From: an uncultured bacterium
GTDB lineage: Bacteria; Bacillota_I; Bacilli_A; RFN20; CAG-826
Assembly: GCA_949299395.1 (NCBI GenBank)
Contig: CASGAB010000011.1
Span: forward strand, 1-36,369
Length of the DNA: 36,369 nt
Direction: 5' to 3'
In this document: piece after piece, positions 13,466 to 34,514 of the stretch
How positions within the stretch are numbered: the stretch's first letter is position 1
Layout of the letters: each line of letters begins with the position of its first letter
Translations under genes and position numbers: made by a program
The notes under the pieces: generated by a model
Seen by the model: the letters and a program-made list of their open reading frames with translations, nothing else
Databases searched by the model: none
What the model was told of the DNA's origin: nothing

Positions 13466-13521
13466 ATATATACAAGAATGCTGGAATTAAGAAAATTTTT
13501 CACTTTTTCTATAATTTCTAT

Positions 13522-13559: not shown

Positions 13560-13700
13560 TTAAAGATCCATGTCTTTTAAGTCAGAATAAGCGACATAGT
13601 CATTTATAAAGTTTTCCAACCCATTTTCATTTCTGTATGAATTCGTGTCTTTATAAGAATGACGTTTGCCGCTCATTAAATTAATGAGTTTCTTAATCAT
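13560..13700 (-). CDS. 46-residue small protein of unknown function
   Basis: Forty-six codons beginning MIKKLINLMSGKRH and ending DLKDMDL, stop TAA at 13562-13560. It is well supported as a gene. A strong Shine-Dalgarno (AAGGAGA) lies 7 nt before the ATG, a near-consensus promoter about 85 nt upstream, and a strong terminator begins 7 nt after the stop. The N-terminal 12 residues could form a short amphipathic helix. The middle is polar and Tyr/Asn-rich, and the C-terminus is acidic. There is no signal peptide, Gly-Gly leader site or cysteine. It lies directly upstream of the ABC/FtsX pair but is separated by a terminator. Family unknown. Confidence 0.75.
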   Translation of the reverse strand: MIKKLINLMSGKRHSYKDTNSYRNENGLENFINDYVAYSDLKDMDL

Positions 13701-13759
13701 TCTTATCGTCTCCTTTTCGTTTACTTAAGCACAATCGGCATGTATTTGGGTTATTAAAC

Positions 13760-13783
13760 ATTACCTGATTTGCTCAAGGTAAT
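13760..13783 (-). promoter_or_regulatory. Leader hairpin of the 46-aa gene
   Basis: ATTACCT (13760-13766) and AGGTAAT (13777-13783) form a 7-bp stem with a 10-nt loop at the very 5' end of the predicted transcript. The remaining roughly 55 nt of leader has no evident terminator, so any regulation would be at stability or translation. Confidence 0.4.
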
Positions 13784-13785
13784 AA

Positions 13786-13814
13786 ATAATAGACCTAAAA
13801 TGAAAATGTGTCAA
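13786..13814 (-). promoter_or_regulatory. Near-consensus sigma-A promoter of the 46-aa gene
   Basis: Minus strand TTGACA (13814-13809), exactly 17 nt, TATTAT (13791-13786). The best promoter in the window; predicted start near 13779. It lies 18 nt downstream of the pepC stop. Confidence 0.8.
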
Positions 13815-34373: not shown

Positions 34374-34397
34374 AAATTCTACTTAATAAAAATATGA

Positions 34398-34482
34398 ATT
34401 TCCTACGCTAGAATTACCTAGATCAGGTTTAACGGTCAAAAGTAACTACTTTTATCTCAGCCGGTATCACCAGCACCCAGAA
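34398..34482 (-). promoter_or_regulatory. TPP riboswitch aptamer (THI element)
   Basis: Minus-strand landmarks in order: GGGTGCTGG (from 34478), GGCTGAGAT (about 34463-34455), AACCTGATCTAGGTAAT and CTAGCGTAGGAAATT. These match the THI box consensus (GGGTGC, CTGAGA, CCTGATCTGGATAAT, GCGTAGGGAA) including the pyrimidine- and pyrophosphate-sensing helices. With TPP bound the terminator at 34345-34373 forms and switches the thiT gene off. Confidence 0.95.
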
Positions 34483-34485
34483 AAT

Positions 34486-34514
34486 ATAATATTCCTCTTT
34501 TTTTATTAAAACAA
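34486..34514 (-). promoter_or_regulatory. Promoter of the TPP riboswitch
   Basis: Minus strand TTGTTT (34514-34509), exactly 17 nt, TATTAT (34491-34486). The predicted start is a few nt before the aptamer. The -35 lies 1 nt after the ung stop. Confidence 0.65.

Follow-up and report, generated by a model that had tools for sequence, protein, structure and literature searches.

The 36,369-nucleotide (nt) stretch of DNA analysed here (contig CASGAB010000011.1 of assembly GCA_949299395.1, from an uncultured bacterium; hereafter, the window) carries on its minus strand an open reading frame (ORF) for a protein of 46 amino acids (aa). We regard it as probably a stand-alone gene for a non-hydrophobic protein of 44-47 aa, whose messenger RNA (mRNA) would behave as a translational bistable switch with a kissing interaction between the leader and the ORF. 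Comparison of the homologues reveals the conservation of the coding frame, a conserved complementarity between the loop of the leader hairpin and the ORF, and a capacity of the ORF for two alternative folds that exceeds that of synonymous controls, from which we infer that these folds form in cells and control translation. The original prediction for this locus described a short, apparently strongly expressed unit and overlooked what seems to be its main feature: the ORF is in itself a conserved RNA structure, predicted to be able to hide its own start and complementary to the leader loop.

A Small Gene under Protein-Level Selection

Loss of the reading frame in relatives had been named beforehand as the result that would turn the locus into a small RNA (sRNA). 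The frame was instead found conserved in 18 of the 26 genomes of the genus: a single-protein query recovered homologues in 13 of them, and a profile search raised the number to 18 full-length members, all of 44-47 aa and present as one copy per carrier genome. In six non-overlapping pairs of homologues, the amino-acid score was compared with that of the same substitutions placed at random, and it stood above random placement with z-scores of 3.1-4.2 per pair (8.4 when pooled). Random placement would often introduce stop codons, and the substitutions observed favour the third codon position (58/43/79 for the first, second and third positions). This selection on the frame indicates that the ORF is a coding gene and not merely an sRNA. 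The ratio of nonsynonymous to synonymous substitution rates (dN/dS) is 0.09-0.17 between the ORF of the window and its four nearest relatives and climbs to about 0.4-1 in deeper pairs of homologues, a rise suggesting that the silent sites of the ORF are also under constraint.

The encoded peptide is hydrophilic, with a polar, charged C-terminal half, and its conserved residues lie around the motif xNRNE(N/S)GxxxF(I/V)xDYVxYxD. An AlphaFold model built with 11 sequences (mean predicted local distance difference test score of 71) places helices at residues 2-11 and 27-45, neither of which is a long hydrophobic segment, and suggests that a flexible linker joins the two. A small regulator or adaptor is our most likely guess for its function.

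Two Mutually Exclusive Hairpins Predicted within the ORF

Every one of the 18 homologues forms a hairpin (A) across its start region when positions -20 to +66 are folded alone. In the group of the window, the AUG-containing AUAAGAAUGAU forms base pairs with GUCAUUCUUAU, located in codons 13-16, whereas in most other homologues a CUCC of the ORF pairs with the GGAG of the Shine-Dalgarno (SD) sequence, and early codons pair with the region of the AUG. A second, longer hairpin (B) results when the region from +25 to +129 is folded; there, this stretch of the ORF, at about codons 10-18, pairs with codons about 30-39. Alignment columns paired in B have changed on both sides, among them 9.1-38.3 (A-U or G-C) and 10.3-37.1 (U-A, C-G or G-C). 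The strand common to A and B prevents both from forming at once, and the models thus yield two mutually exclusive and conserved folds, one of which would hide the start site.

Both hairpins are more stable than synonymous sequences redrawn from the codon usage of the window, with mean z-scores of -2.8 for A and -3.5 for B, and permuting the synonymous codons of each gene itself gave results in the same direction for both. Under this second control the whole ORF reached z-scores of -2.1 to -4.8 in 13 of the 14 homologues computed. In a computation on the growing transcript, the AUG or the SD is mostly closed at +45 to +90, once codons 13-16 are out, and in most homologues the start site partly reopens at +105 to +120, when the 3' arm of B has emerged. 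The ORF itself can, in these models, sequester its start codon, which bears on the strong expression that had been attributed to the unit.

A Leader Loop Complementary to the ORF

The apical loop of the leader hairpin was scored against the entire ORF in each of the 18 homologues. In all of them it is complementary to the same codons (N/S-G-F/I/V/L, alignment columns 26-28), which make up a segment that we call K; this is the best site of the loop in 17 homologues and the second best in G024. Segment K sits in the tip of hairpin B, where codons about 19-21 offer it an alternative local partner. Loop and ORF change together: AACCCA or GACCCA occurs with UGGGUU, GAUCCAU with AUGGAUU (G007), GCACCAC with GUGGUGU (G008), ACCACU with AGUGGU (G019), and ACCAAU with AUUGGU (G005, whose protein has N-W-L at this place instead). 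When the pairings of loops and ORFs were permuted, only 2 of the 720 permutations of six classes reached the true summed score, and with four classes only 1 of 24 did, the true pairing itself. Shuffled loops reached the observed score at K or more with probabilities of 0.034 (G000), 0.005 (G007), 0.039 (G013), 0.027 (G008), 0.056 (G019) and 0.063 (G005). Compensatory changes are hence found on both sides of the contact between leader and ORF.

The copy in G005 (L030 / G005:C55:9161-9292) is also the most diverged member of the family. It carries NKNW in place of NENG and keeps the match of the leader loop to the ORF, so that pairing in the RNA can persist after the motif of the peptide has changed.

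Exposed C-rich loops are typical seeds of sRNAs, and the C-rich, exposed leader loop, the strong promoter and terminator and the compact structure of the transcript would also suit a dual-function RNA, acting mainly in trans through this loop and with the ORF in a secondary role. However, the loop differs between lineages in step with the ORF of its own transcript, as would suit a target in cis, and the protein is under selection, so we deem a dual-function RNA quite unlikely. It is even less probable that this is an ordinary small-protein gene in which AT-rich, repetitive codons happen to give rise to folds. AT-rich sequence easily yields chance stems, and the gene has a clear coding signal, but A and B both outdo controls that encode the same protein with the same codon usage, and a noncoding element, the leader loop, tracks the changes of the ORF.

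A Putative Self-Regulated mRNA

In the switch that we propose, the first third of the ORF would fold onto the ribosome-binding site as the RNA emerges, covering the start codon and/or the SD (conformation A). Codons about 31-39, on emerging, would capture the same strand of the ORF and tend to free the start site (conformation B), and the leader-hairpin loop would kiss K near the tip of B, biasing the choice between both conformations. Candidate triggers for the switch are the timing of folding during transcription, temperature, a protein or an sRNA. As to the direction of this effect, we lean towards a kiss that is part of the open state, by analogy with the toxin mRNA timP discussed below. 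Such a control through mRNA structure would probably set the timing of protein production. A more specific and tentative version is that of a self-timed mRNA, in which translation would be licensed only once RNA polymerase has transcribed as far as about codon 39: the start site would be freed by the 3' part of the gene, while the leader loop would check for the matching sequence inside the gene.

Several observations weigh against a switch of this kind. Eight of the 26 congeners (G001, G004, G006, G009, G012, G014, G022 and G023) have no recognisable copy of the gene. No part of the ORF is richer in G than segment K, which pairs readily with a C-rich loop (the chance from position only is 0.1-0.6), the classes of loops and ORFs compared are not fully independent, and the pairing between loop and K is weak in the group of G013, G025, G017 and G003, which retain only 4 bp of it. 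With regard to the folds, G005 is weak for both hairpins, G002 and G005 have little or no excess stability of B, and the start remains closed in the full-length folds of G016, G018, G021 and G005; the kiss, which is not represented in the folding programs used, could shift the balance in either direction.

If the mRNA is self-timed, its coding sequence would act both as a message for the protein and as the riboregulator of that message, and would evolve in concert with the leader. If the switch as such is real, the contact between leader and ORF would be readable from covariation, and a coding sequence of about 140 nt could carry an elaborate regulatory RNA and keep its protein, which would make this family a compact test case for the coexistence of coding and RNA constraints.

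Comparison with Known mRNA Switches

Some features of the proposed mechanism are familiar from other small genes. In the hok mRNA, metastable and final folds govern the access to the start site, much as suggested here, but hok requires 3' processing, is paired with the Sok antisense RNA and encodes a hydrophobic toxin; no sequence relation between hok and the 46-aa ORF was found. The cIII gene of phage lambda also encodes a small regulatory protein (about 54 aa) translated through alternative folds of the start region and the early codons, although it is a phage gene under the control of RNase III and is not known to involve a kiss between a leader loop and the ORF.

The timP mRNA of the type I toxin-antitoxin system TimP/TimR is alike in having its start region in a stable hairpin and mutually exclusive folds: its SD lies within a hairpin of -11 kcal/mol, and its translation requires a covarying 7-bp pseudoknot formed by a stem-loop further upstream (PMC11228461). 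The contact in timP is inside the 5' untranslated region, whereas here it extends into the ORF; timP also encodes a membrane toxin and has an antisense-type sRNA (PMC11228461), and for the 46-aa ORF neither was found. In Helicobacter pylori, the AapA3 mRNA contains a short ORF whose own anti-SD stretches form start-hiding hairpins during transcription, with support from covariation, and it therefore offers a precedent for start-hiding hairpins embedded in an ORF; it differs in having an antisense RNA and a toxic peptide, and in that a 5'-3' interaction keeps the full-length RNA inert until trimming at the 3' end activates it (PMC6733600).

Both timP and AapA3 encode type I toxins (PMC11228461, PMC6733600), and the 46-aa ORF could likewise be a toxin mRNA, that is, a folded message for a toxic peptide, silent until triggered and countered by an antisense RNA. 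Its anatomy resembles that of timP, AapA3 and hok, with a start-hiding hairpin, alternative folds and a 5' stem-loop contact (PMC11228461, PMC6733600), and its presence in the genus is patchy. We nevertheless judge a type I toxin unlikely: instead of a hydrophobic membrane peptide, the ORF encodes a hydrophilic one with a charged C-terminal half, each genome has a single copy, no link to mobile elements appears, and no antisense promoter at the locus is common to the homologues, which leaves room for an antitoxin encoded in trans. Since the peptide is non-hydrophobic and no antisense promoter recurs, we do not file the ORF as a toxin-antitoxin system, although at the level of the mRNA it may be like one. 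If the switch is real, a chromosomal gene for a small protein, with no sign of a toxin-antitoxin partner, would be using a kind of folding described mainly for type I toxins.

A Protein Family Recognised in One Genus

As far as sequence comparison can tell, the family is confined to a single genus of uncultured Bacilli from gut and rumen, with no recognisable member beyond it. The named records of homologues are metagenome-assembled genomes of uncultured Bacilli/Mollicutes, one of them from the omasum of a roe deer. Profile matches in the family and the order, the latter at chance level in up to 279 genomes outside the genus, were discarded as chance or short partial matches within other frames, and no additional members came from a search with the G005 sequence, the most diverged of the family. 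Nothing above chance was found for the protein in Pfam, NCBIfam, PHROGs, PDB, or collections of phages, plasmids and viral contigs; an origin in mobile elements was rejected, as the ORF has no relative among phages, plasmids and viral contigs. No Rfam family reached its gathering cut-off for the unit, and a Bacteroides sRNA model was dismissed, with an E-value of 0.065, far under its cut-off. These poorly studied bacteria thus gain a family of small proteins that Pfam, NCBIfam and Rfam do not contain.

On a tree of the genus, whose rows are mostly GatA (from ORFs picked by a script) and in which G009 is misplaced, the clade of the window groups together. Genomes without the gene are interspersed among carriers, such as G023 and G012 beside G008, or G022 beside G007, which suggests either loss or drift past recognition. 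No diverged copy was seen at the P-type ATPase locus of the non-carrier genomes, in the five loci that were readable.

Expression Signals and Gene Neighbourhood

The signals of the unit (Table 1) agree with most of what had been proposed for it. A scan of both strands of the window for sigma-70 consensus promoters (at least 11 of 12 positions) returned a single site, the TTGACA-17-TATTAT at 13814-13786 (-), itself 11/12, so the promoter called the best in the window is indeed so; a -35 element of the TTGAC type occurs in most homologues. The structured leader, the SD and the ORF are as described, the leader hairpin being present in all 18 homologues, as is an AGGAG 6-12 nt upstream of the ATG. 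The terminator, placed just beyond the interval originally noted (13560-13814), is the only terminator-like site within 2.5 kb (shuffle mean 0.4) and has counterparts, by rule, 3' of the ORF in 16 of the 18 homologues. All the parts of a complete stand-alone unit were therefore found. The predicted transcript of 261 nt folds at -64.1 kcal/mol versus a shuffle mean of -41.0 kcal/mol (z -5.2).

Table 1. Coordinates of the features of the 46-aa ORF unit in the window.
Feature	Position	Strand	Remarks
-35 element TTGACA	13809..13814	-	6/6 match; TTGAC-type in most homologues
-10 element TATTAT	13786..13791	-	spacer of 17 to -35
Leader hairpin, 55 nt	13778-13724	-	dG -16.4 kcal/mol; z -3.6 vs dinucleotide shuffles
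Leader-loop kissing segment UAACCCA	13747..13753	-	best complementarity across the ORF at 13623-13617; co-changes with the ORF in homologues
SD AAGGAGA	13715-13709	-	8 nt 5' of ATG; read from sequence
46-aa ORF, start to stop codon	13700-13560	-	homologues in 18/26 congeners; pooled z 8.4
Hairpin A, 5' arm AUAAGAAUGAU, with start codon	13696..13706	-	11 bp with 13653-13663; A beats synonymous controls
Hairpin A, inner stem (CUCAUUA / UAAUGAG)	13672..13688	-	from folding
Anti-start strand GUCAUUCUUAU (A, 3' arm; B, within 5' arm)	13653..13663	-	common to both hairpins
Hairpin B (long), 5' arm	13649..13676	-	B mean z -3.5 vs synonymous redraws
Segment K (leader-loop target), UGGGUUG, codons N-G-L	13617..13623	-	alternative local partner 13634-13645
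Hairpin B, 3' arm, rival for the anti-start strand	13587..13611	-	from folding
Intrinsic terminator, hairpin and U-run	13553-13524	-	begins 6 nt past the ORF stop

Two further signals lie at the edges of the unit. An ORF of 22 codons (13761-13693, -), which begins inside the leader hairpin and overlaps with the first codons of the 46-aa ORF, lacks an SD; its frame is lost in G010, and it is probably not translated. On the opposite strand, a promoter-like site matching 10 of 12 positions (13487-13515, +) is aimed directly at the terminator hairpin, in which an antisense RNA would probably end at once.

The ORF lies between pepC (Peptidase_C1_2, 15217-13835) and an ABC/FtsX gene (13465-11453), both on the minus strand. 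The reported adjacency to an ABC/FtsX pair is thus real in the window, and the order gatCAB-pepC-ORF-ABC/FtsX, in some cases with one gene inserted, is found in 8 genomes of its clade, with a ninth (G020) sharing the upstream part on a contig that stops past the ORF. The functional link that this adjacency implied fails outside that one clade: in other lineages the neighbours differ and include a P-type ATPase, a UmuC-like polymerase and a malic enzyme (as assigned by eye), and the large 3'-flanking genes are convergent in G013, G025, G008 and G019. With neighbours that differ between clades, the proximity to ABC/FtsX appears incidental, and a functional tie of the ORF to ABC/FtsX, PepC or GatCAB was discarded.

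The same comparison bears on the idea of a leader-peptide attenuator of the ABC/FtsX genes, which follow the terminator in the same direction in one clade; short ORFs and alternative folds are typical of attenuators. We consider this highly improbable, as there is no fixed downstream gene in the same direction, the neighbours being different or even convergent in the lineages mentioned, and the conservation of the protein exceeds what a leader peptide needs. Variable or convergent downstream genes, together with the terminator in 16 of the 18 homologues, indicate rather that the RNA structure serves the 46-aa ORF.

Elsewhere, the window contains no transfer RNA or transfer-messenger RNA gene. 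A thiamine pyrophosphate (TPP) riboswitch (RF00059, 62.1 bits) is located at 34385-34490 (-), upstream of ORFs at 34324-33239.
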